Assembly (NCBI GenBank): GCA_001412365.1
Contig: LKUE01000265.1
Span: forward strand, 1 to 12,455
Length of the DNA stretch: 12,455 nucleotides
Source: Desulfuromonas sp. SDB
GTDB taxonomy: Bacteria; SDB-A
Direction of reading: 5' to 3'
The notes under the pieces were generated by a model. That model saw nothing but the letters and a program-made list of their open reading frames with translations. It did no database searches and had not been told where the DNA came from. The first letter of the stretch is position 1; the number at the start of each line of letters is the position of its first letter. Made by a program: the position numbers and the translations under genes. Positions 1-12,283 of this stretch are shown here, piece by piece.

Positions 1-225
1 TTTCTGCTCTATTAAATCCTCTAATTTATCCTCGGGCTCAATGGGTATCCCCTGAGGATAAAGATCACCGGATAGTTCAGCAGGATACTTACGGTCATCA
101 ATATCGGGAATTTGAGTTGCGGTAAAAGCAACCACCTCATATTGTTCCTGTTTGCGGAAAAAAGTATTGAAATTATGAAAATCTCTTCCCGCAGCTCCGA
201 GGATCAACACTTTTCTTCGATTCAA
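1..225 (-). CDS. Predicted GTPase, cyclic 2,3-diphosphoglycerate synthetase-like (5' part only)
   Basis: The first 75 codons of a gene that leaves the window at base 1. The N-terminus reads MNRRKVLILGAAGRDFHNFN, followed by VVAFTATQIPDI and YPQGIPIEPE. I recognise these blocks from the COG2403 family: predicted GTPases that include the methanogen cyclic 2,3-diphosphoglycerate synthetase. The VLILGAAGRD stretch looks like the start of a nucleotide-binding Rossmann-type fold. The nucleotide-binding P-loop of the family is not visible in this part. The start is TTG at 225, chosen because AAGGAGG (231-237) sits 5 nt upstream and no ATG lies in frame nearby. Bacterial members are widely annotated only as 'GTPase', so a role in cyclic 2,3-DPG synthesis should not be assumed. 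It is separated from the upstream lipoprotein gene by about 295 bp and probably has its own promoter. Family assignment is fairly sure; function is not. Confidence 0.8.
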   Translation of the reverse strand, partial: MNRRKVLILGAAGRDFHNFNTFFRKQEQYEVVAFTATQIPDIDDRKYPAELSGDLYPQGIPIEPEDKLEDLIEQK

Positions 226-520: not shown

Positions 521-1678
521 TTAAAAACCTCTGACCACCCTGAAACCCAAAGTGTTGGCTTTGATCAGCACGTCAGCAAAGTCCGGATCAGAGGGATTTC
601 TGCAGGCGCATCTGAGATTCTCCGCTCCATCAAACCAGGAACCTCCCCTAATTACCCGGTAAGTTCCAGTAGCAGGACCAGAAGGATCCTGCTGGGGAGA
701 ATTTTCATAATAACTTGCAGAATAATAATCATTAGTCCATTCTAAAACATTTCCAGACAAGTCATACAATCCATAGGCATTGGGGTTAAAACTTCCCACC
801 GGACTGGTGTAGGGAAAACTATCCATTCCCGACCAATTACATCTCTGCCCGGGATCATCCTCTCCCCAAGGGTAGGGATTTTGATACAATCCTCCCCTGG
901 CTGCAAATTCCCACTCCGCTTCAGTGGGGAGGCGATAACCGCCGCCAAACAAACATTCCCAGGTTAAGGTATCGTATTGGGGTTGGTAACCATCCCTGTG
1001 GGAAAGCCAGTTGCAGTAACGGGCGGCATCATACCAGGAAACCATCACCACCGGATAGGCTGGAAAGCTGTCAAAATAATTATCCATTCCCGGAAAGTTA
1101 GGTGAAGGCGGATGGGGGTAGCCATTGGAATTACAAAAGGTTCTGTATTCCGCATTAGTCACTTCTTTTGCCGAAATATAAAATATAGACAGGGAAACCT
1201 GATGAACCGGGGCTTCATCGGGCAAATGACCGATTTCCGTACTGTCACTTCCCATATAGAAAAAACTGTCACAGGCTAACAGCACCAAATTAGTTTCAAT
1301 ATACCTGTCTATGATAAAGTTTCCGGGATTTAAATCATAAACAGATGTATCTGCTGAATTTACAATCTTTACCCGGGCTTCATTGGTAATTATCCGGGGT
1401 ACTGTCCAGTTATAGCTTAGAGAAGCAATATTGCTGTCAATTAAAATCCAGGATGAATCATCGGCTATGCGGTAATAGAGGTTAACCTGATTTACATCTC
1501 CCTCCACCATCCAGGAAACAACTGCAGTGCTGTCCCAATAGAACAAATTTCCTTGTTCCGGATGGGTAACCGTTATGTTGTCGGAAGGAGGGGGTGGTTC
1601 CGGATCTGTACCCCCTGATTTTGTACAACTGTAAAATAATATTACCGATAAAATAAACAGAATTTTTAATAATTTCAT
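521..1678 (-). CDS. Lipoprotein with Ig-like domain and SUMF1/FGE-fold domain, probably non-catalytic
   Basis: A 385-residue protein. Residues 1-18 form a lipoprotein signal peptide ending FYSC, so Cys18 would be lipidated. A Pro-rich linker (PEPPPP) follows. Residues about 35-125 (ITVTHPEQG... to ...FIID) resemble a small secreted Ig-like beta domain of the Ser/Thr-rich-anchor type. Residues about 131-385 are a formylglycine-generating-enzyme-sulfatase (SUMF1) domain: FYMGSD near 142, GYRLPTEAEWEFAARGG at 247-263, YGLYDLSGNVLEW, IRGGSW ending at 348, and the closing LGFRVVRG. True FGE has two catalytic cysteines just after the GGS-aromatic motif. Here Asp350 and Leu355 fall at those spacings, and the nearest cysteines are Cys357 and Cys359. 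No sulfatase gene is nearby. I infer a surface binding or structural role for a C-type-lectin-like fold rather than sulfatase maturation. AGGAGGAG at 1684-1691 supports the start. It appears to be its own transcription unit after the pilus operon terminator. Confidence 0.85.
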   Translation of the reverse strand: MKLLKILFILSVILFYSCTKSGGTDPEPPPPSDNITVTHPEQGNLFYWDSTAVVSWMVEGDVNQVNLYYRIADDSSWILIDSNIASLSYNWTVPRIITNEARVKIVNSADTSVYDLNPGNFIIDRYIETNLVLLACDSFFYMGSDSTEIGHLPDEAPVHQVSLSIFYISAKEVTNAEYRTFCNSNGYPHPPSPNFPGMDNYFDSFPAYPVVMVSWYDAARYCNWLSHRDGYQPQYDTLTWECLFGGGYRLPTEAEWEFAARGGLYQNPYPWGEDDPGQRCNWSGMDSFPYTSPVGSFNPNAYGLYDLSGNVLEWTNDYYSASYYENSPQQDPSGPATGTYRVIRGGSWFDGAENLRCACRNPSDPDFADVLIKANTLGFRVVRGF

Positions 1679-1834: not shown

Positions 1835-1876
1835 AGAAAAGAGTAGAGTGATCAAATATTTGATCACTCTACTCTT
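1835..1876 (-). terminator. Intrinsic terminator: 38-nt perfect palindrome at the operon end
   Basis: Bases 1839-1876 form a perfect palindrome with 19-nt arms (AAGAGTAGAGTGATCAAAT and its complement). It starts 5 nt after the TGA of the 1676-residue protein gene. In the minus direction it is followed by TTTTCT (last stem bases included). An RNA hairpin with a short U-run is expected. No plus-strand gene ends here, so it most likely serves the pilus operon. The 3' T-run is short, so efficiency is uncertain. Confidence 0.75.
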
Positions 1877-1881
1877 CGGTT

Positions 1882-4800
1882 TCACTCAACTCTCATTAAT
1901 TTGCCGCTCGAGGATCCGTATTCAGTTTCAATTACATAGAAATAGGTTCCTGCTGAAATCTGATGCCCGTGATGATCAGTTCCATTCCACCGTAGTTGGT
2001 GAATTCCAGCATTCATTTCCTGAACCATCGAGGAAACTTTTCTTCCGGTTAAATCATAGACATAGAAATTTACTCTGGTATGACCGGGAACAGTTAGATT
2101 AATTGAGACTCCGTCGGTGAAAACGTTGGAGGAGGATAAAAATACAGAAAAAGCATAAGGTGAATTGACAATCTGCTCTTCAGATTGTCCTCCCAAGGGT
2201 TTAGCCACATCCAAGCTGAGACAGTACAAAGATTTTAATTCTCCGGAACTGTCTTTCCCCCCCAAAACGTAGAATGTAGCTAAATCAGATATTCCATAAC
2301 CTTGTTCTTTAAGCATGGCAATAACCGTAGCATCCGCTTTTTGTTCAGGGAAATCGGGAAGGGTGAACCAGCCCCGTTCATTTTCATAAAGATAAACTGA
2401 AGATATATACTGTCCATCTTTTTCTCCTCCCGCCACCAGGAAGAAAGTGCCGGTTCCCCCGCCAAAAGCCTGATTAGTGCGTCCCACCGGTGAACGGTAA
2501 TCGGTGGACCAGTTTATCAGAGTGGGAGAGGCGGGATTCACTTCACCGATGTAAAAGTGATGTCCCAGGTTGTTTCCTGCCGCCAGCAATATTTTTCCAT
2601 CAATCTGACTGGCAACTCCCTGGGAAAACCCTCCGGGCACCGGATTGGCAATCATGAAGGTTTGGGTGTTTTGATCAAAAAGATAACATTTTGGATAGTG
2701 ATCAAGATCACCTTCGATAACATAGACATAATCATTGCCCCATCCGGTAGTTGAAATTACGGTAGGAGAAGTCATCCCCTCTGGTAATTCAACCGTTTGG
2801 TAATTATCCGAACTCTGATCGTAAATCAACATCACTTCTTCCTGATTTCTGAATTCTCCCACGATGAATACCTGTTCATTAGCCACGGTGCAATTACCAG
2901 AGAGCAGTTCCAGGGGAGGAGGGGTATCTTCACTCCAGGTATTTGTTCCTGGATTGTACACATAATGCAGGGTATCCGTGTAAACATGAATATAATCATC
3001 CTCATCAATCCAGGAGCAACCTCCTGAGACTGGAGTGGGAATATCTGCCAATCTAACCCATTGAGGTGATTGACACCGGATCATACTTACTGCAGTATCA
3101 TTGTGACAGTTCTGATCTCCGGGATAATCAATTAACACCTTTTTCTGGTATATATGATCTGATTCCAGCACAACCGATCCAAAGTTAATATTTAAACTGT
3201 CTTCATAGTGCAGGTTGGTGACATTATAGCTTTCATCTAAAATAACATCACCGGTCACCATATCCACTAATATGGCGTTAACGGTGAAGTCAGCGGTACT
3301 GGTTCCTGAATTAATAACCATCGAGGTTATCTCATGATTTCCTGCAGGGGCAAAAATATTTTCATTGCCCGGCTCAGGAGGGGCGACCAGGGCATCGGTC
3401 TCATCCGCTGAAAACAGGGTGATATTATCAATCACCGCCGCTCCGTGACTAGAAGTGTTTTCATAGAAACAGAACCCGATGTCTATCTTGGAATAAGCGG
3501 CATAAGCAGATACATCTACCGAATCCCATCCTACAAAAGCAGGGGTTATCAGAGGATAATAGGTTTTAAGTTCAAACCATTCCGACCATCCGGAGACGCT
3601 GTATCCGGAAAGAATTACCTTGATTGAATCGTAGTTGTTGTTAAATCCTATTCCATACCTCATGTACTTCACATTAATGGGATTCCAGTCCGCAGGGGAA
3701 AAGGTGGTGTCCACCAGAGGAGTGGTGCTGGAAGAGGCATTCCCAATCCACATACTGTATGATCCGTCGCTGGGCAAGCTTAAAGAGCTGACTGTACTAG
3801 AGCTTCTATTCTGCCATCCATTGGGCCATAAATTTCCGTTAGTATGAGTCCAGTCCACATTGGTATTATTTTCAAAATTCCATCCAATTTCAGTGATGTA
3901 AGGACGGTTGGAGAGCATGATGTTGTCAATGCCGAAGAAACGGTCATAACTTGTTCCGTCCCGGTGGATGTAGATTACAGCCATCTGAAAGCTGTCCGCT
4001 CCAGCTAAATCGGGAAGATCTTTATAATACCAGTTGGGATAACTTCTTTCGGTAAACATATAAGCCTGATCCCAGTCCGACCAGTTGGCATTTTTATAGA
4101 GTTTATAGAGGATTACCGCGGTATCCTGTAAAACGGATGTGCTGTTCCTAAAACAACTGGTCCAGATGAGGTACTTCTCATCTCCGCTTATTCCCACCTG
4201 AGGGGAAAAGGTGGTGTCATTGACATAAACCTGACCGGTTCCCTCGCACCACAGAGTCCAATCGTCTGAATCCATCAAGTCCCAGTCATTCCCGTGTTTA
4301 AGCGATGATTCCCGGTTCCAGTAAGTGGTGGACAAAAATCCCTGAAGTCCCGGTTCAAAGGTCCAGGGGGGATCAAAGTATCCGGTTAAGCCGATGTCAA
4401 TGCTGTGGGGCGGTGACCAGGGACCGATTAAAGTTGTATCTGAAATCACTCTAGCCCGGGACCGGATGTAGTAAACTCCGGTTCCCGCAAACTGATGGGA
4501 ATCCATCCGGGTAGTATCCCAGGAGGAATAAGACCCATCTCCCCACATAAACTGATATTCCAAATCTCCAAAACCGCTGCTGGCGGTGTCGGAGATAAAG
4601 GTATAATTGGTGTTCACATAACCCCAGGTGGGTCCCCAGGGAGCAGTCAACGGTCCGACAATGGGAGGAAGGAATGTATCCACCCTGATATCGTCAATGT
4701 AGAAACCGTAACCATTACCACCGGTTCCGTTGTTATCCGCCAGTCTCATCAATATGGACAAATCTTCAAAACTGGCATAGGGAGAGAGATTAATGCTGTA

Positions 4801-6912
4801 CAGCATCCAGTTAGCTTCTGAACCGGTATACCCGCCCTGGTTGCAACTTCTCCAGGTCATGTAAAAAGTTCCGGTGTAAATAGGATCTACCAGATCGTGG
4901 GGTATAGTATCCCAGTACTTTCCGCTGGAAGACCAGGTCCCCGAATAACTGGCTAAACTTTCACTGCCTACAAATAAACCCAGTCCGTCCACGGTCCAGT
5001 CAGATTCATACCACATCCAGTAGTACATTACTGCGGAATCGGCATAGGAAATATTTATATCCGGAGAAAGAAACCAGCTGGCATTGGTGTTGTAAATATT
5101 GTCCAGATCAGTAGCCCACACTAAATTGCCGCTTCTTGCCTGCAGGGGACCGGAAAGAGGAAGGCCCCATTCCCAGTCACCGGTAGTTCCCACTCCATAG
5201 CCGCCATCGTCCTCCTCAAAACCATTGTACCAAACCGTCTGAGGGCGGAGTATTTTAACCAACAGGGGATCAGACCAGGTGGAAACCATGGTGGTGTCTG
5301 CGGCATCTCTCACCCGGGAACGGATGTAGTAAGATCCCACTGTAGCCCAGGAATTGGAAACCATTTCCGAATTACTCCAGTTGGAAACCGATCCGTCTCC
5401 CCAGTCAAACTGGTACTGGTAAGTCCCGGGAATGACATCGGAGGTATAAGTGTACACTGTATCCACCAAGCCGCTATCCGGTCCAGAAGGGCTGACTACC
5501 GGTCCGGGAATATTCATAAAGGTGTCCACTCTGATATCATCTACATAGAATCCGTCTAATCCGGAAGCGCTGTTTACCCCTAATCTCCAGTTAATTTGTA
5601 AATCTTGCATATCCAGATAGGGAGTTAAGTTTACACTATATAAAATCCAGTTGTCCCCCATTCCGGTGTATCCCGGATCGGTAGTTCCCCACCAGGACAT
5701 AAAGTAAGTGCCGGTATAAGGAGGGAACACCTGATCAGCGGTGACCGCATTCATATTATCGTAACCGTTGGGCAAACTGTCGGTAAGCACCATTATCGCC
5801 ACCGCATCCTGATCCTGAGTGGATTCGTACCACATCCAGTAATACAAAACCGCTGAATCAGCAGCGGATAGGTCCATGGGCTGGGAAAGCAGCCAACTGG
5901 CATTTTCATCGTAGGGGGCATCCAGATCAGTTCCCCACAGCTGATAACCGCTGCGGGCGGAATAAGGACCGGATTCGGGGATTCCCCATTCCCAGTCTCT
6001 GCTTCTGCTGTTGGCAAAACCCCCGTCATCCACCTCAAATCCCCAGTATCTTACCGTGTTGTGATTCACTACAATCACCAGCATGGAATCAGACCAATCG
6101 GAAATGGAATCAGCAGGGAACAGGGCATCTCTCACCCGGGAACGGATAAAATAACTACCCGGTTCAGCCCACACCTGATCTACATCAGGAGTAGGGAACC
6201 AACCGGAAAGCGATCCGTCACCCCAGTAAAACTGGTATTCCACATTACCTGCCACCGCCTCCGAACTGTAGGTATAAGTCAGTCCGGTCAGGCAGCTGTC
6301 CGATCCGGTGGGGGGAAGAACCGGTCCGGGATAGTCGGGCAACTCTGTACTTAAACTGACGTTGTCAATTCCCACATAGTATTCCCTTCCCCAGGGTGTT
6401 CCTCCCCGGTAGGCAAAGGCAATCTGAAAGGAATCAGTTCCGTATACCTGGCTGGAAATATCCGCTGAATCGTAAACTCCGTAAACATCCGAACCGAAAT
6501 AAAAAGTCAACTGATTCCAGTTGGACCAAGCCCCTCCAACTGAAGTTCTAATCAGCACACTGGCGGTGTCATAATCTCTGCCACTGTAGTATCTATATCC
6601 CACTCCCCATTTAAACCACTTATAGAAATTCACCGAATCAGTTATCGCCGGGGAGATCAAGGTGTCTCTTAGTACAAAGCTTCCCGCATCATAACTGCTG
6701 CACCACATGGACATGGCATCCTGATCAGGCGGTCTCCGGTAGCGAAGATCGTAAGGCTGCCAGTCCCAGCGGCGGGGCCAGTTAACTCCTTGATCCCGCT
6801 TAGCGGTGGTCCAGCCATCAGTCCAGGGAGTATCCTCAAAGTCCCAGAAATGACCGGCTAGCAGGATCCCGGAAGATAATATTAAAAAGAGGATTAACAT
6901 TAATTTTTTCAT
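1882..6912 (-). CDS. Giant modular secreted/surface protein: PKD-like, jelly-roll, Kelch-like and FlgD/T9SS-type tail
   Basis: A 1676-residue exported protein. The signal peptide is MKKLMLILFLILSSGILLAG. Modules in order: a jelly-roll/MAM-like domain (about 21-190, ending VGIDNVSLS); three PKD-like domains (about 195-281, 469-552 and 752-842), each with a WGDGS core and an IRSR strand; jelly-rolls after each (ending FYVDDIRV near 460, FYIDDIRV near 744, FFGIDNIML near 1000); a fifth jelly-roll (ending VIDNITLF near 1165); a CARDB-like domain (about 1180-1280); a degenerate Kelch-like propeller (about 1283-1566); and a C-terminal FlgD-Ig/T9SS-type domain (about 1581-1676) with VYDLTGRKV, WNGTD and SAGTYFYVIE, ending KLMRVE. 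The tail suggests export by a type IX-like or related route, but no such machinery is in the window. I place the start at 6912: the in-frame ATG at 6924 lies at the 5' edge of the GGGAGGA ribosome site, and the signal peptide begins at 6912. The gene is 15 nt after the PilY1-like gene and last in the operon. Function is unknown; adhesion or surface display in concert with the pilus is inferred. Confidence 0.85.
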   Translation of the reverse strand: MKKLMLILFLILSSGILLAGHFWDFEDTPWTDGWTTAKRDQGVNWPRRWDWQPYDLRYRRPPDQDAMSMWCSSYDAGSFVLRDTLISPAITDSVNFYKWFKWGVGYRYYSGRDYDTASVLIRTSVGGAWSNWNQLTFYFGSDVYGVYDSADISSQVYGTDSFQIAFAYRGGTPWGREYYVGIDNVSLSTELPDYPGPVLPPTGSDSCLTGLTYTYSSEAVAGNVEYQFYWGDGSLSGWFPTPDVDQVWAEPGSYFIRSRVRDALFPADSISDWSDSMLVIVVNHNTVRYWGFEVDDGGFANSRSRDWEWGIPESGPYSARSGYQLWGTDLDAPYDENASWLLSQPMDLSAADSAVLYYWMWYESTQDQDAVAIMVLTDSLPNGYDNMNAVTADQVFPPYTGTYFMSWWGTTDPGYTGMGDNWILYSVNLTPYLDMQDLQINWRLGVNSASGLDGFYVDDIRVDTFMNIPGPVVSPSGPDSGLVDTVYTYTSDVIPGTYQYQFDWGDGSVSNWSNSEMVSNSWATVGSYYIRSRVRDAADTTMVSTWSDPLLVKILRPQTVWYNGFEEDDGGYGVGTTGDWEWGLPLSGPLQARSGNLVWATDLDNIYNTNASWFLSPDINISYADSAVMYYWMWYESDWTVDGLGLFVGSESLASYSGTWSSSGKYWDTIPHDLVDPIYTGTFYMTWRSCNQGGYTGSEANWMLYSINLSPYASFEDLSILMRLADNNGTGGNGYGFYIDDIRVDTFLPPIVGPLTAPWGPTWGYVNTNYTFISDTASSGFGDLEYQFMWGDGSYSSWDTTRMDSHQFAGTGVYYIRSRARVISDTTLIGPWSPPHSIDIGLTGYFDPPWTFEPGLQGFLSTTYWNRESSLKHGNDWDLMDSDDWTLWCEGTGQVYVNDTTFSPQVGISGDEKYLIWTSCFRNSTSVLQDTAVILYKLYKNANWSDWDQAYMFTERSYPNWYYKDLPDLAGADSFQMAVIYIHRDGTSYDRFFGIDNIMLSNRPYITEIGWNFENNTNVDWTHTNGNLWPNGWQNRSSSTVSSLSLPSDGSYSMWIGNASSSTTPLVDTTFSPADWNPINVKYMRYGIGFNNNYDSIKVILSGYSVSGWSEWFELKTYYPLITPAFVGWDSVDVSAYAAYSKIDIGFCFYENTSSHGAAVIDNITLFSADETDALVAPPEPGNENIFAPAGNHEITSMVINSGTSTADFTVNAILVDMVTGDVILDESYNVTNLHYEDSLNINFGSVVLESDHIYQKKVLIDYPGDQNCHNDTAVSMIRCQSPQWVRLADIPTPVSGGCSWIDEDDYIHVYTDTLHYVYNPGTNTWSEDTPPPLELLSGNCTVANEQVFIVGEFRNQEEVMLIYDQSSDNYQTVELPEGMTSPTVISTTGWGNDYVYVIEGDLDHYPKCYLFDQNTQTFMIANPVPGGFSQGVASQIDGKILLAAGNNLGHHFYIGEVNPASPTLINWSTDYRSPVGRTNQAFGGGTGTFFLVAGGEKDGQYISSVYLYENERGWFTLPDFPEQKADATVIAMLKEQGYGISDLATFYVLGGKDSSGELKSLYCLSLDVAKPLGGQSEEQIVNSPYAFSVFLSSSNVFTDGVSINLTVPGHTRVNFYVYDLTGRKVSSMVQEMNAGIHQLRWNGTDHHGHQISAGTYFYVIETEYGSSSGKLMRVE
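4387..6330 (-). repeat. Intragenic tandem module repeat (PKD + jelly-roll), period about 820-860 nt
   Basis: Inside the giant gene a PKD-like plus jelly-roll unit occurs twice in full (about 5509-6330 and 4660-5508), followed by a third PKD-like domain (about 4387-4659). Nearly the same DNA words recur at matching offsets: CCCGGGAACGGAT at 6135 and 5313 and CCCGGGACCGGAT at 4455; TACCACATCCAGTA near 5828 and 5010; CCCATTCCCAGTC near 5985 and 5169. Shared nucleotide words across units suggest duplication within the gene rather than only structural resemblance. Confidence 0.75.
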
Positions 6913-6915
6913 ATT

Positions 6916-6922
6916 TCCTCCC
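6916..6922 (-). promoter_or_regulatory. Ribosome binding site deciding the giant protein's start
   Basis: GGGAGGA on the minus strand, 3 nt before the ATG at 6912. The alternative in-frame ATG at 6924-6922 shares its G with this site, so it cannot use it. The 6912 start also gives a clean signal peptide. Confidence 0.75.
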
Positions 6923-6927
6923 ATTTA

Positions 6928-9699
6928 TTAATAAACTTCATTCCAATATACGTATTTCTTCTTCAATCCGGGGCCTGCAATTTCCGTAACCACCGGCCCT
7001 CCGCTGGTCATAATAACCACTACCGGACCATCGGGTCCCACCGTTACCTGGGGAGAGGAAGGAATGCCGATATGACCCAACTCTACAATATTTACCAATC
7101 TTCCCGTGGCTAATGTCGCCACATACAAACGGGCATAACCTGCTCCTACCTCGCAAGGACCGGCAACCGCCAGGTCAGGGGTAAAGGTAGTCCAGTAAAC
7201 ATAGCCCTGATAGATAAGAGGTAAAGAAGTAACCTTTTCACCCTGATGTTGATGCCGGTAATACCAACCGTTGTTTCCGGGAGGACAACCGGTGGAAGTT
7301 AACGAATCCAAATCATCCAAACTAGCCGGTGCCCCTGCCACCGGGGGATTTCTGAAGATAAAGAAATATCCGTATCCGGTGGAATCCATGGGGTCATCAC
7401 GATTTCCGGTTCCGTAGCAGTAATAGGTATTAGCGGAAATATCCAGAGCTACTGCCACCGGAAAGAAGGAAACCAGATCGGCATCAGCAGGAGCAGCGCT
7501 TTCCGGAGCAAACACATTCCTGAAGTTCCAGGCGGCAGGATCCGCAGTGTCCTGTATATTGTCAATGAGCAGAAGATTGCCACCCAGATCGGGAACAACC
7601 AACTGGTCCACATAACCGTCAATATTCATATCCATTAAGGAAACTGACGAGGCAATTCCATTAGATTCAGGACTGTTCCAGGCATAGGTGCTTTGCAAAT
7701 CTCTGTACACCGGCATAATTGCAATAAAATCGCCGGTGTCGGGGATGGGATCATTATTTGCATCGGGAACATACCCGCCGCCCATCATAAATCCCCATAC
7801 CGGTTGAGCGGTATCCACTCCTGATCCGTCCGGATCAACCCAAAACTGCCCGGCAGTGGGCTGGGACCAAGTATTGCCAAAGGTTCTGGTTACCATGCCC
7901 CCTTCCAGAGGCGCGGAATTAAATTCGGTTACAAACTTTGGATAATCCGAGGTATCCGGATTTAAAGGAACTTCGGTTATATCTAAAACAAAATAATTAT
8001 TTCCTCCTTCTCTTTGACCGAGAATTAGAAAAGTTCTCCAGTCGGAAGCATCTCTTACTCCGTTGGAATCAAGGTCGGACCAGAGATCGGCAGCGGTAAC
8101 CGGACCGTCTAAAATATAAGTATGACTGCCGTCCAGTGCCCAGATTCTCAACTCAGGAAGAGCAAAGGAGGGTATCCAAGCCCATTCCTCATGACCGGTT
8201 GCCCCGTTCAAACAGTGGAGTACTCCGGTATTGGTTCCCACATACACTCGTTTCCGGCTGTCCCGGTAGGCGTGCTGTTTGCGGAAGAAAATATAGGAAT
8301 CATCTCCGTTGTAAAAAGGACTGGGAGCGCCAATCATAAGAGGTGCGCTGTGAAAGACATCCCCCATTTTCCATCCCGGTTGAACTTCACTATGTCCTTG
8401 TCTCACCCGGGAAACAATTAAATCTTTCTGGGCGGTGGTTATTCCCCCTCCCAGATAAACCGGCATTACATTTGCCGCAGTAAATTCTTCCCTGCTATTA
8501 GCGTGAGTCCAGTATATATTCCGGGAGGCTTGACTGGTGTAAAGCAGGGAGTCTCCTGCCGACCACATCACGTCTCCGATCACCGTATCTCCGTGGAAAG
8601 AATGTGCTTTTACCTGCCCGTCCCAGAATCCGGAGGAGGTGGGGCGGAAGGTGGCAATGATAACCGAGGTATCACTCATTGCCGTTCTCACCACGGGAAC
8701 GCTGGCAGGAGAAAAGGAGAAATTAGCATTTACAATAGATTGAAAAATATGTTTCAAAGCTTCTGACAATTCATTGGCGGACTGAGCGATAAACGCATAA
8801 CCTTCGCAGCGGTGATATGAAGGAGGATAGGCGCGGTATCCGGAGGTGGTAGTGGAGGGAGGAGTGTACCACCCGTTAGTATTTCCCCAGTTATTGGGAA
8901 TGGGCATGGGCCAGCTTGCCGGTTTGTACACATGGCAATGAGGAGGGTTGTAGTCTTCATCGGAAAAATTATAATCATCGGGGTTATCCGTCCCCCCCCA
9001 TCTGGCAGCCCAGTTCAGCTCATTCCTGCCGTGTTCGGTAATACCCAAACCGAAACCAACGGTGAACACCGGAATATTGTTGTTTTCATAACTTACCGCC
9101 GCTTCTCTGACTACACTCCAGCTTCCCTGCCACTCATTGTGGTAGGTGTAGGTGTAGTTTTCAGTGGTTCCGTATTTGTTGGATTCACCATCGCTGATCA
9201 GAATGAGGTAGTAACTCCGGCAGTTGAGATCAGGATGGGAAGAATCGTATTCATGCACCCAGCGGGAAGCGTAGTAAAGAGCGGGTCCGTTGGGAGTGTA
9301 ACCACTGTTATAGGTATAATCCATGTGACTCCATATAGTGGCATATCCGGTTCCAAAGGGATCTGCCTCTAAATTCCCCACGGTCTCCCCGGGAGTGTAA
9401 ATATAAGGTTCGGGATTGCATCCGCTGCTGGGAATTCCGTAGTAGAACATCTGCCCCACATCAACTCCCAGAATATCCCTGTCCTCATCTTCCACCACTC
9501 CATCCCCGTCCGCATCCAGAAGGTTTTCCATAACCCAGAGGGCTTGCTGAATACGGCTGGGGCTTCCGCTGGCCATACTGCCTGACCGGTCCAACAAGAT
9601 CATCGCCGCTGGTTCAGCATTAACCCTGAACAGCACCTCATCATTGGCAGTGAGTACAAGCGGAAGAAAAATTATTAGCAGAAATATTTGTTTTTTCAT
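6928..9699 (-). CDS. pilY1: PilY1-like type IV pilus tip protein with VWA domain and C-terminal beta-propeller
   Basis: A 923-residue exported protein; signal peptide about 1-18 (MKKQIFLLIIFLPLVLTA). A von Willebrand factor A domain follows at once. Its metal site looks complete: DRSGS with Asp37, Ser39 and Ser41, Thr135 in YTPNGPAL, and Asp170 in LISDGES. An EF-hand-like loop DADGDG lies inside it at 62-73. A Pro/Tyr/Trp-rich stretch covers about 250-300. The rest is the PilC/PilY1 beta-propeller: MGDVFHSAPLMIGAP, RKRVYVGTNTGVLHCLNG, FLILGQREGGNNYFVLDIT, and the calcium loop DMNIDGYVD at 690-698 before VVPDLGGNL. A second Asp-rich loop, DLDSNGVRD, sits at 542-550. PilY1 proteins cap type IV pili, prime assembly with minor pilins, and act in adhesion and surface sensing; calcium binding at the propeller loop controls retraction in the Pseudomonas protein. 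It is slightly shorter than the Pseudomonas protein. It overlaps the upstream 189-residue gene by 4 nt (ATGA), so translation is probably coupled. Confidence 0.92.
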   Translation of the reverse strand: MKKQIFLLIIFLPLVLTANDEVLFRVNAEPAAMILLDRSGSMASGSPSRIQQALWVMENLLDADGDGVVEDEDRDILGVDVGQMFYYGIPSSGCNPEPYIYTPGETVGNLEADPFGTGYATIWSHMDYTYNSGYTPNGPALYYASRWVHEYDSSHPDLNCRSYYLILISDGESNKYGTTENYTYTYHNEWQGSWSVVREAAVSYENNNIPVFTVGFGLGITEHGRNELNWAARWGGTDNPDDYNFSDEDYNPPHCHVYKPASWPMPIPNNWGNTNGWYTPPSTTTSGYRAYPPSYHRCEGYAFIAQSANELSEALKHIFQSIVNANFSFSPASVPVVRTAMSDTSVIIATFRPTSSGFWDGQVKAHSFHGDTVIGDVMWSAGDSLLYTSQASRNIYWTHANSREEFTAANVMPVYLGGGITTAQKDLIVSRVRQGHSEVQPGWKMGDVFHSAPLMIGAPSPFYNGDDSYIFFRKQHAYRDSRKRVYVGTNTGVLHCLNGATGHEEWAWIPSFALPELRIWALDGSHTYILDGPVTAADLWSDLDSNGVRDASDWRTFLILGQREGGNNYFVLDITEVPLNPDTSDYPKFVTEFNSAPLEGGMVTRTFGNTWSQPTAGQFWVDPDGSGVDTAQPVWGFMMGGGYVPDANNDPIPDTGDFIAIMPVYRDLQSTYAWNSPESNGIASSVSLMDMNIDGYVDQLVVPDLGGNLLLIDNIQDTADPAAWNFRNVFAPESAAPADADLVSFFPVAVALDISANTYYCYGTGNRDDPMDSTGYGYFFIFRNPPVAGAPASLDDLDSLTSTGCPPGNNGWYYRHQHQGEKVTSLPLIYQGYVYWTTFTPDLAVAGPCEVGAGYARLYVATLATGRLVNIVELGHIGIPSSPQVTVGPDGPVVVIMTSGGPVVTEIAGPGLKKKYVYWNEVY

Positions 9700-10265
9700 C
9701 TGACCCCCCTTGATTGCAATGAGGGAGTTGTTTGAGCAAACAGAATGACCAAGGGCAAATATCCTTTGCCATTACCCAGCTCAATTTCTATCACACTGTA
9801 AGCAACTCCGCTGCGGGGAATACTTTGTTCTGAGGCAAAGTGGAGAGAATAACACCACTGGCTCCTGTTTAGATATTTCCCCTGAAAATTAACTTCCACT
9901 CCCTGGGGATTGTTCAGGGGAAAACCAGGAGTAAGCCCTTTTAAAGAACCTATCTCCAAGTGATACTCATCATCCCCGTGATAAATTATAATTTGGGGAG
10001 GGTAGCGGTAATTGCTGGTCACCGCGGTTGCTTTTTGTTCCAGATCATTTTCAACCAAGCTGGCAATTGAATCTCTTTGCTGAAGGTCCAGCTGATATTG
10101 ATGGTCATATTGGAGGGAAAAGGGAAGGGACAGACTGGTCCATCTGGAATCAGGTCCCAACTCAGGAGGGACATGATCCCCATAGGAATCCACTCCCCTC
10201 AAGCTGCGGGGTAAGATAAGCACACTCAGCAGGATATAAAACGTAAAAATAATGGATCTATTCAT
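9696..10265 (-). CDS. Uncharacterised exported protein between PilX-like and PilY1-like genes
   Basis: A 189-residue protein I do not recognise. Residues 1-24 look like a signal peptide (MNRSIIFTFYILLSVLILP, then RSLRG). The mature part is polar and probably beta-rich, with alternating strands such as QIIIYHG, YHLEIGSL and VEVNFQGKYL. A short helical segment near 60-80 (QQRDSIASLVENDLEQKA) precedes it. A single Cys (in SQWCYSL) and a basic end (QSRGVR) are notable. No prepilin motif is present, so it is not a pilin. A good ribosome site (CAGGAGG) precedes the ATG. It starts 12 nt after the PilX-like gene, and its stop overlaps the PilY1-like start in ATGA, which argues for near-equal production with PilY1. 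In Pseudomonas no such gene separates pilX from pilY1. I infer a PilY1 partner, chaperone or periplasmic assembly factor; this is unproven. Confidence 0.8.
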   Translation of the reverse strand: MNRSIIFTFYILLSVLILPRSLRGVDSYGDHVPPELGPDSRWTSLSLPFSLQYDHQYQLDLQQRDSIASLVENDLEQKATAVTSNYRYPPQIIIYHGDDEYHLEIGSLKGLTPGFPLNNPQGVEVNFQGKYLNRSQWCYSLHFASEQSIPRSGVAYSVIEIELGNGKGYLPLVILFAQTTPSLQSRGVR

Positions 10266-10277
10266 GTTACCTCCTGT

Positions 10278-10742
10278 TTAGGGATAGCCAGTAGTCCCTC
10301 CGGGGACAGGAGCTACTGAAGTTCCCACTAATATTTGTGATCTCCCCTGCCGGGGAGAAGTTATCAGTTCTTCACCGGTTATTTTATATGAATAGTTCAT
10401 AGCAACCAAAGCTCTCTCATTGGCGGTCCAGGAAGCGGTATATCCGGACATAATTTTAGTAGTCTTGGTCATGGTATCAACTGTAATTTCAACCCTTCCC
10501 ACATTAAACTGGGCTCCGTGATCGGGCTGGTGGACTGTTCCCAGGGTTGCGGTAACTCTTTCTGCCCCTGCTTCAGTTCCCCTGAACGCCTTGGTTTTAT
10601 GTCGGATGACGTCGGTAATCCGGATATCTGATACCGCCAGCATGTAGGCGGCAGCCACAATTAAAGCACCCGCCACCAGTATACTCAAGGCAAGTATCAG
10701 GGCTATTCCTTTCTGTGGCTTTTTCAATTCATATTTTCTCAT
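10278..10742 (-). CDS. pilX: PilX/GspK-like minor pilin
   Basis: A 154-residue type IV pilin-like protein. The prepilin cleavage site is QKG then IALIL, after Gly12, followed by a hydrophobic helix to about residue 36. The PilX N-terminal signature is clear: a D-rich turn (SDIRITD) then KAFRGTEAGAERV, matching the usual AFYAAEAG block. Position 5 of the mature protein is Leu17 rather than Glu, as in GspK-type pilins that sit at the filament tip. The rest (about 70-154) is small and beta-like with no cysteine. Its ATG overlaps the PilW-like stop by 4 nt, and AAGGAG lies 6 nt upstream. I infer a tip-complex minor pilin that works with PilV-, PilW- and PilY1-like neighbours in starting assembly. 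The symbol rests on the signature plus gene order. Confidence 0.8.
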   Translation of the reverse strand: MRKYELKKPQKGIALILALSILVAGALIVAAAYMLAVSDIRITDVIRHKTKAFRGTEAGAERVTATLGTVHQPDHGAQFNVGRVEITVDTMTKTTKIMSGYTASWTANERALVAMNYSYKITGEELITSPRQGRSQILVGTSVAPVPGGTTGYP

Positions 10743-11380
10743 AGCCTGCTCCTTACGGTAATTCTCCTGGAAAAAGTAATTGTATCCGCCTCTCCCATCG
10801 CTCCCCGTTCATTATAGGTTACTACTTCCAGGTCCACATAGGCGATATCTCCCTGTTCAGAAGTATCAGTTACCACTCCCCCGGTGTCATTGTAGGGGAT
10901 GATATTAAAATCTTCAACTCCGGTTATCAGGACATTGTAGACATAAGCTCCTCCCTGATAACGCACATTGTAAACATTTTTATCAGATGAATTATAAACC
11001 AATCCGAAAGTTTCATAAGCAGTATCTAAACTGTTGTTTCCAAAAGTAGAAGCAGGATAGACATCGGAGAAATAGCAGAAAGTATCATTGCCGCTGGAGT
11101 TATAATAAATTTTCCAAATTTTAAAAATTTCAATATTTTGAAATTCTGCAGTATTTCCGGGAATTGCCCGGAGCTCCTTGGAGGCAACTCTTAACACCGC
11201 TTCTGCTGATTGCATTGCCTCGGATCTTCCCTCCATGATCACCTGATGCTTTTTTTCCTGGGTGTAATAGACAATTAACATGCCCACAATTACAATTCCC
11301 ATGATTAATGCAGCCATTAATTCAATTAGAGAAAATCCTTTACCGGTGTGTTTATGAATAGAATGTTCAATCTTTTTCAT
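10739..11380 (-). CDS. pilW: PilW/GspJ-like minor pilin
   Basis: A 213-residue prepilin-like protein. A rather long, basic leader of 15 residues ends in GKG, then FSLIELMAALIMG, with Glu20 at mature position 5. The N-terminal helix continues to about residue 75 (SAEAVLRVASKELRA). The C-terminal half is a beta-rich globular domain whose last strand reads FSRRITVRSRL, a typical PilW ending. There is a single Cys (in TFCYFSD), so no disulfide within the protein. AGAGAGGTAGG precedes the ATG. The stop overlaps the next start (ATGA), so it is coupled to the PilX-like gene. The role inferred from family is a minor pilin of the priming complex. GspJ of type II secretion is the main alternative, but the PilY1-like gene downstream favours a pilus. 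Confidence 0.82.
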   Translation of the reverse strand: MKKIEHSIHKHTGKGFSLIELMAALIMGIVIVGMLIVYYTQEKKHQVIMEGRSEAMQSAEAVLRVASKELRAIPGNTAEFQNIEIFKIWKIYYNSSGNDTFCYFSDVYPASTFGNNSLDTAYETFGLVYNSSDKNVYNVRYQGGAYVYNVLITGVEDFNIIPYNDTGGVVTDTSEQGDIAYVDLEVVTYNERGAMGEADTITFSRRITVRSRL

Positions 11381-11385
11381 AATAC

Positions 11386-11745
11386 CTACCTCTCTGCAAT
11401 GTAAGATTCAATAGTATCATATTTAGTATTGCCAATCCGGTCTTTCCAGGTGTATTCAACAACCAGCATTTTCCCTCTTAATCCCGAAGTATCCATGGTA
11501 ACTTGCCAACTGATTTCAGTAGCTCCAATCACCGTGTCGCCATTGGCAACCGAGTCATAATCAATGCTTTTTATCCATTCAATATAGTCCTCAAAATCAT
11601 TGATTGCTGTTTTTTCTAACCTCACTGATTTTTCTGCCTGTACTGTTCTCATCCTAGCTGTTCCCAGGGCTACAATTCCTATAGCGAAAAGAACTACTAC
11701 TACTAGAACTTCAAGATAAGAAAATCCTTTATCTTTTTTTCTCAT
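11386..11745 (-). CDS. pilV: PilV-like minor pilin
   Basis: A 119-residue prepilin-like protein. The leader is MRKKDKG, then FSYLEVLVVVVLFAIGIVALG, with Glu at mature position 5 and a Gly/Ala-containing helix typical of PilV/GspI. The mature part is short; after a helix (LEKTAINDFEDYIEWIK) there is a small beta domain ending TIESYIAER. The start is ATG at 11745, not the GTG at 11748: AGGAGG (11750-11755) lies 4 nt before the ATG but only 1 nt before the GTG. The ribosome site overlaps the stop of the GspH/FimT-like gene, a sign of tight coupling. Position as second in the set matches the FimU-PilV-PilW-PilX-PilY1 order of Pseudomonas. GspI is the alternative family. Confidence 0.8.
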   Translation of the reverse strand: MRKKDKGFSYLEVLVVVVLFAIGIVALGTARMRTVQAEKSVRLEKTAINDFEDYIEWIKSIDYDSVANGDTVIGATEISWQVTMDTSGLRGKMLVVEYTWKDRIGNTKYDTIESYIAER

Positions 11746-11749
11746 CACC

Positions 11750-11755
11750 CCTCCT
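11750..11755 (-). promoter_or_regulatory. Ribosome binding site deciding the PilV-like start
   Basis: AGGAGG on the minus strand, overlapping the TAG stop (11754-11756) of the preceding pilin gene. Its spacing favours ATG at 11745 over GTG at 11748. Confidence 0.7.
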
Positions 11756-12218
11756 AGTACTTGATAATCCTGGTTAATCCAGTGGCGGCAATTACCTTAA
11801 CTGAAAGTTTTTGATCCCCTTGCTCGATAAGAACTGATTCTGCAGAAGTGGTTGTAGTATCAAGAGAACCAATTGGCAAAAATACCATCTGAGTATAGTT
11901 TCCGCCATTCATGGTAACATCTGAGGGTACATCTCCGGAAATCCCCATTGAAGAAGTTGATCCTCCGGAGAGCAGGTAAACTTCATAGTGACCTTTTTTC
12001 CCAGTTTCATTAAAACTGATTAGAACCGTATCCGCCTTGGTAACTGCAAATTCCCTCGCCTGTTTCAGAACACCGGAAACCTGGCGGGTAGCTCTTATAA
12101 ACTTGTTGTTTACACTGTTAACCACAGGAATGGAAATCAATACAATTAAGCCAATTAGCACGGTTACCACCATTAGCTCAATTAACGTAAAGCCTGAGTG
12201 AACGCCTTTTTTTATCAT
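11754..12218 (-). CDS. GspH/FimT (FimU)-like minor pilin, first gene of the operon
   Basis: A 154-residue prepilin-like protein. The leader is MIKKGVHSG, then FTLIELMVVTVLIGLIVLIS, with Glu at mature position 5. The helix carries the GspH/FimT-type segment VLKQAREFAVTKADTVLISF. The globular part holds a beta sheet with the FLPIGS turn and the ending VIAATGLTRIIKY, all usual for the GspH/FimU family. No cysteines. AGGAGGAG (12222-12229) precedes the ATG by 3 nt. It opens the operon, about 50 nt from a sigma-54-like promoter. FimU-type pilins link the tip complex to the major pilin filament in Pseudomonas; the same role is inferred here. FimT is the alternative name, so I leave the symbol empty. 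Confidence 0.85.
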   Translation of the reverse strand: MIKKGVHSGFTLIELMVVTVLIGLIVLISIPVVNSVNNKFIRATRQVSGVLKQAREFAVTKADTVLISFNETGKKGHYEVYLLSGGSTSSMGISGDVPSDVTMNGGNYTQMVFLPIGSLDTTTTSAESVLIEQGDQKLSVKVIAATGLTRIIKY

Positions 12219-12267
12219 CAGCTCCTCCTGAATATATCTAAATATTTTATCATTTTAATATTCTAGT

Positions 12268-12283
12268 AGCATGATCCATGCCA
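12268..12283 (-). promoter_or_regulatory. Candidate sigma-54 (-24/-12) promoter of the minor pilin operon
   Basis: On the minus strand this reads TGGCATGGATCATGCT. Against the TGGCACG-N4-TTGCW pattern it keeps TGGCA, the following G, TGC and the W, and the GG and GC doublets are separated by the required 10 nt. Transcription would start near 12258, about 40 nt before the ATG. Sigma-54 control with PilR is known for type IV pilin genes in other bacteria. Caution: GCATG-ATC-CATGC within it is a perfect inverted repeat, so an operator is possible. A sigma-70 reading (TTGTGG, 15 nt, TAGAAT) is poorer because of its short spacer. Confidence 0.6.

Follow-up and report, generated by a model that had tools for sequence, protein, structure and literature searches.

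What is a gene for a giant secreted protein of 1676 residues doing at the end of an operon for the tip of a type IV pilus, and what is a small exported protein doing in the same operon, just before pilY1? The locus that raises this question fills the window, here the whole of a 12,455-base contig (C265) from a draft genome of 3.14 Mb. It was compared with its counterparts in the phylum, which is represented in our genome collection by four genomes from two genera: the window genome (G000) and three relatives (G001, G002 and G003), one of the four being labelled at NCBI as candidate division WOR-3, isolate Zod_Metabat.185. The features of the window, in which no Rfam family was matched, are collected in Table 1.

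Table 1. Features of the window, listed in the direction of transcription.
Feature	Position	Strand	Length (aa)	Basis or remark
Sigma-54 type (-24/-12) promoter element, TGGCATGGATCATGCT	12268–12283	(-)		TGGCA-N7-TGCW matched here and nowhere else in the window (0.08 expected)
GspH/FimU-like minor pilin	11754–12218	(-)	154	N_methyl PF07963, 24.3 bits (cut-off 21.2)
PilV-like minor pilin	11386–11748	(-)	120	N_methyl above cut-off; PilV TIGR02523 E 2.4e-5, below cut-off
PilW-like minor pilin	10739–11380	(-)	213	Prepilin N-terminus KGFSLIE; position
PilX-like minor pilin	10278–10742	(-)	154	Hydrophobic prepilin-like N-terminus without Glu5; position
189-residue exported protein	9696–10265	(-)	189	Signal-peptide-like N-terminus; overlaps pilY1 start by 4 nt
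PilY1-like protein	6928–9699	(-)	923	MIDAS residues in a VWA-like N-terminus; beta-propeller at the C-terminus
Giant modular secreted protein	1882–6912	(-)	1676	T9SS type A sorting domain at the C-terminus, roughly the final 75–90 residues
Intrinsic terminator hairpin, end of unit	1839–1876	(-)		Perfect 17-pair stem, then T-rich tail
FGE-sulfatase-type lipoprotein, distantly GldK/PorK-like, outside the unit	521–1678	(-)		PF03781, 198 bits
Partial gene	1–225	(-)		Matches the gene after the FGE gene in relatives; extends synteny beyond the FGE gene

The seven genes occupy 12218 to 1882 on the minus strand, and their junctions measure 5, 5, -4, 12, -4 and 15 nt; the open reading frames and all six junction lengths given in an earlier note on this DNA are confirmed. 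The 15-nt junction and the length of 1676 residues hold if the giant protein starts at Met5 of its listed open reading frame (6912), a start chosen because a GGGAGG ribosome-binding site is found there and none at the ATG at 6924, and because the G003 homologue starts there too. The strong hairpin that had been noted at the operon end is likewise present, its stem perfectly paired and followed by T's. In G001 and G003, a G/C-rich hairpin with a T-run – unrelated in sequence to that of the window – stands directly after the giant gene and before the FGE gene, and a terminator at this place is therefore seen in the three genomes in which the junction was read (G000, G001 and G003). That the seven genes are transcribed together is better evidenced by these short junctions and this unit end, both kept in relatives, than by gene order. 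On such grounds, the tip-set, 189-residue and giant genes likely form one transcription unit and are likely co-expressed.

Beyond the operon end, the FGE gene begins after 203 nt in the window, and its place after the terminator is conserved in G001 and G003; its product scores 150.8 bits against the GldK model TIGR03525 (cut-off 350), and a connection with the T9SS is possible. For a homologue of the partial gene at the contig edge (L011, 3520–4857), CobW is the sole match, below threshold, and the next gene along belongs to the amino-acid-kinase family.

Five of the seven genes make up a minor-pilin/PilY1 set of the usual type IVa pilus kind, as had been proposed, a reading supported by the prepilin N-termini, the gene order, and the profile and fold of the PilY1-like protein. 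The names of the four minor pilins are given as ‘-like’ and rest on gene order and N-termini, since none of the NCBIfam equivalog cut-offs for PilV, PilW, PilX and GspH was reached. The prepilin motif PF07963 scores above its cut-off in the GspH- and PilV-like proteins and below it in the PilW-like protein (16.4 bits against 21.2; a ComGE-like match has an E-value of 1.5e-5), and is absent from the PilX-like protein, which has no match in Pfam or NCBIfam. The GspH/FimU-like protein additionally reaches 18.9 bits against GspH PF12019 (cut-off 21) and an E-value of 6e-8, below cut-off, against TIGR01708. Identity to the relatives is 50–54% for the GspH/FimU-like, 64–67% for the PilV-like and 57–63% for the PilW-like protein, rising to 81–82% for the PilX-like protein, whose gene is the most conserved of the set.

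The PilY1-like protein (61–63% identical in the relatives) scores 27.2 bits against PF05567, just under the cut-off of 28.1, with an E-value of 2.3e-6, and the same family is matched at E ≤0.001 by all 21 aligned PilY1 relatives. Its profile matches 3hx6, the PilY1 crystal structure, with an E-value of 2.3e-8, and a profile of the 21 relatives does so with 7.6e-69. The predicted fold, of moderate confidence (pLDDT 62), also finds 3hx6 as its best Foldseek match (E 3.6e-17), ahead of other propellers; by VIA, the model aligns with 3hx6 over 380 residues (Z 22.5, rmsd 2.9), amid other propellers. The MIDAS residues of the DxSxS...T...D pattern (D37, S39, S41, T135 and D170) are invariant in the four phylum genomes and nearly so in the 21 relatives, and a putative EF-hand-like calcium motif of the form Dx[DN]xDGxxD occurs at 690–698 (DMNIDGYVD; DMN[IV]NGFVD in the relatives).

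A type IVa machine is encoded elsewhere in the genome, with two PilT proteins above cut-off, PilB- and PilC-type genes and just one secretin, which in G003 sits behind pilMNO. At L058 (1583–4974), two adjacent PilB-type ATPase genes precede pilT and pilC, the two being 73% and 69% identical to their respective G003 counterparts.

In Pseudomonas aeruginosa, the corresponding operon reads fimU-pilV-pilW-pilX-pilY1-pilY2-pilE. The window shares with it the four minor pilins followed by PilY1, in the same order, and a PilY1 with a propeller fold and a VWA/MIDAS-type N-terminus; unlike it, the window has neither pilE nor pilY2, places the 189-residue gene ahead of pilY1 and the T9SS-tailed giant behind it, and has a sigma-54 type promoter element. 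The minor-pilin/PilY1 cluster 1 of Myxococcus xanthus, a tightly spaced operon, likewise encodes an additional exported protein immediately ahead of pilY1 (there pilY1.1). This is TfcP, which is periplasmic, stabilises PilY1 and is absent from pili (PMC8833165, PMC13190605). However, TfcP is a cytochrome c, whereas the 189-residue protein has no CxxCH motif and no sequence relative of it was found; moreover, cluster 1 is without T9SS cargo.

The 189-residue protein itself has no match in Pfam, NCBIfam, the PDB sequences or phage records, and its orthologues, 31–34% identical, were found only in the four phylum genomes among the 386 genomes searched. Its model, of low confidence (pLDDT 61), combines one helix with an Ig-like sheet and finds only generic Ig-like matches, with Z up to 5.9. 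From the position just before pilY1 that it shares with tfcP, our guess is that it may be a periplasmic helper of PilY1.

How the unit might be switched on is suggested by its upstream region. The earlier note had placed a promoter candidate at the operon front, and such a candidate does exist, albeit of another kind: a sigma-70 match at 12258–12231 carries no weight because it lies within chance frequency (34 such matches, 22.6 expected), whereas the sigma-54 type element just upstream is conserved in the relatives. The sigma-70 scan missed this element, whose outer edge, 12283, is the end coordinate already given in the earlier note. Upstream of the same GspH-like gene stand TGGCAAAGGTTTTGCT in G001, CGGCAAAGATATTGCC (score 12) in G002 and TGGCAAAGATATTGCA in G003; the GG at -24, the GC at -12 and the fixed spacing between them are conserved in all four genomes, 32–49 nt 5' of the start codon. 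Among some 509,000 positions scanned, the only intergenic sites scoring at least 13 with GG and GC in place are those upstream of this operon in G000, G001 and G003. Elsewhere in the genome, pilB, pilT and pilC are adjoined by a PilS/PilR-type pair: a histidine kinase, and a response regulator that contains a sigma-54 activation domain and carries the motif GSFTGA, not GAFTGA. In Pseudomonas, PilR acts with sigma-54 at the pilA promoter (PMC6058289), and we infer that the PilR-type regulator may be the activator of this operon.

The giant protein appears, by its tail, to belong to a different surface machine, the type IX secretion system (T9SS). Pairwise comparison of its modules distinguishes two types of MAM-like module, one present three times and the other twice (this second pair sharing 49% identity), together with three PKD-like modules, a linker, a kelch-like region and the tail; a self-BLAST of the whole protein, unlike the pairwise comparison, gives no off-diagonal matches, and the InhA-MAM, PKD and kelch matches in Pfam are all below cut-off. 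Full-length orthologues, 48–51% identical, stand beside pilY1 in the relatives, that of G002 leaving the end of one contig and continuing on another. The genome encodes about 120 proteins with T9SS type A tails, the giant among them, and in searches for T9SS families, SprA and PorV-family proteins score above cut-off in all four phylum genomes.

The giant thus resembles T9SS type A cargo adhesins such as RemA of Flavobacterium johnsoniae (PMC10202324), which are likewise large, modular and secreted with a type A tail, in a genome with SprA and PorV; it differs from them in that its gene lies in an operon for the tip of a type IV pilus. Most likely it is cargo of the T9SS, exported by that route and displayed at the cell surface, and its modules point to a putative role as an adhesin.

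Neither extra gene is found in the pilY1 clusters sampled outside the phylum. The phylum of G028 offers the closest comparison: its genomes too have T9SS tails – it is rich in them – and its clusters too place minor pilins before PilY1, yet no giant orthologue adjoins pilY1 at the roughly 20 loci sampled there, and in the clusters read a different exported protein of 145–180 residues follows PilY1. Examples, all directly after PilY1 and without an NCBIfam match, lie at L090 (5298–5735), L104 (5351–5812), L105 (11581–12120) and L095 (9301–9732), and they are possibly a different PilY1 accessory protein. At another locus (L102, 10690–15828, in G082), PilY1 is followed by a small exported protein, an unrelated 1037-residue T9SS-tail protein and a PorV-family protein, the T9SS-tail protein about 0.8 kb and the PorV-family gene about 4 kb downstream of pilY1; this is a second case of T9SS genes near a pilY1 cluster, at a rate explicable by chance. 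A literature search for papers linking PilY1 operons with T9SS cargo found none.

Could the tail of the giant be a plain FlgD-like Ig domain, with export by another route? The tail scores 25.6 bits against the T9SS type A model TIGR04183 (cut-off 23; 31.3 in the genome search) and, about equally, 26.2 of the 27 bits needed against FlgD_ig, which makes it borderline between the two; the Pfam model Por_Secre_tail has no match in it, and TIGR04183 at an E-value of 0.001 leaves two of the three giant orthologues unmatched. Nevertheless, the domain forms the very end of the protein and closes with the G-x-Y-F ... K-L pattern that the other tails of the genome share (in our local sorting-tail profile, one row, L108, looks mis-framed), which, with the SprA and PorV families present throughout the phylum, leaves the FlgD-like reading little credence. 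The same tail bears on the suggestion in the earlier note that the pilus complex may carry or mature the giant: with a T9SS sorting tail on the protein itself, and SprA and PorV encoded in the genome, this idea is unsupported and also unnecessary.

Another reading would make the giant a structural part of the pilus, an extended tip adhesin that docks on PilY1 or PilX after T9SS export or by riding the tip complex. In its favour, the gene belongs to the same unit in the same order in all four genomes and comes last after pilY1, the place where Pseudomonas has other pilus genes; however, the giant shares its tail with many other proteins, it lacks a prepilin signal, and pilY1 clusters elsewhere manage without it, and we regard such a structural role as quite improbable. 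A picture in which two secretion machines would build one adhesive tip, the T9SS-exported giant docking on PilY1/PilX and the 189-residue protein serving as an assembly factor, strikes us as similarly improbable.

Conversely, the giant and 189-residue genes might be chance residents of a pilus operon, inherited without a functional tie in a small phylum whose gene order changes slowly. All seven genes stand in identical order in the four genomes; the comparison of gene order around PilY1 homologues thus found the whole set in each of the three relatives, and the earlier proposal, exposed beforehand to the finding that these two genes are never near pilY1 in relatives, escaped it, for they are near it in every phylum genome. 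A chance cluster is untenable because three relatives keep the same gene order. Synteny nevertheless adds little proof of a functional tie, because the two genera also share much of their gene order elsewhere (by a crude count, 24 of 38 neighbouring gene pairs in six other regions compared between G000 and G003) and unrelated flanking genes are conserved around the operon as well. The small sample and the abundance of T9SS-tail proteins in the genome also fit mere residence; against it, the tight junctions and the terminator after the giant gene are kept though the hairpin sequences differ, and the giant is retained at full length in the relatives. Residence without function seems to us rather unlikely, if still deserving of some weight.

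The reading that we favour, and hold to be somewhat more probable than its negation, is that of a sigma-54 controlled operon that would jointly produce two sets of parts for contact with surfaces. One set, the four minor pilins and PilY1, would form the priming/tip complex of a type IVa pilus, which the pilB/T/C and pilMNOPQ machine, encoded elsewhere, would assemble, and the 189-residue protein would most likely fold or stabilise PilY1 in the periplasm before PilY1 enters that complex. The giant would pass through Sec and then the T9SS, to which the type A sorting domain at its C-terminus would direct it. Once displayed on the cell surface, it would act as a large modular adhesin with its repeated MAM-like and PKD-like modules and its kelch-like region. 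The PilS/PilR-type pair would turn on the pilus tip and the giant together.

The novelty of the locus is modest: it appears to be a minor-pilin/PilY1 operon of a known type that also includes a gene for T9SS cargo and one for an exported protein confined to the lineage. What it adds is that a type IV pilus tip and a type IX cargo are tied by one likely transcript, which suggests that the cell produces the tip of its pilus along with a separate adhesin for its surface. The conserved sigma-54 element offers a testable handle on when the pilus tip and the giant are produced, and if the two do act together, they would provide a concrete case of two surface machines being coordinated in an uncultured phylum.
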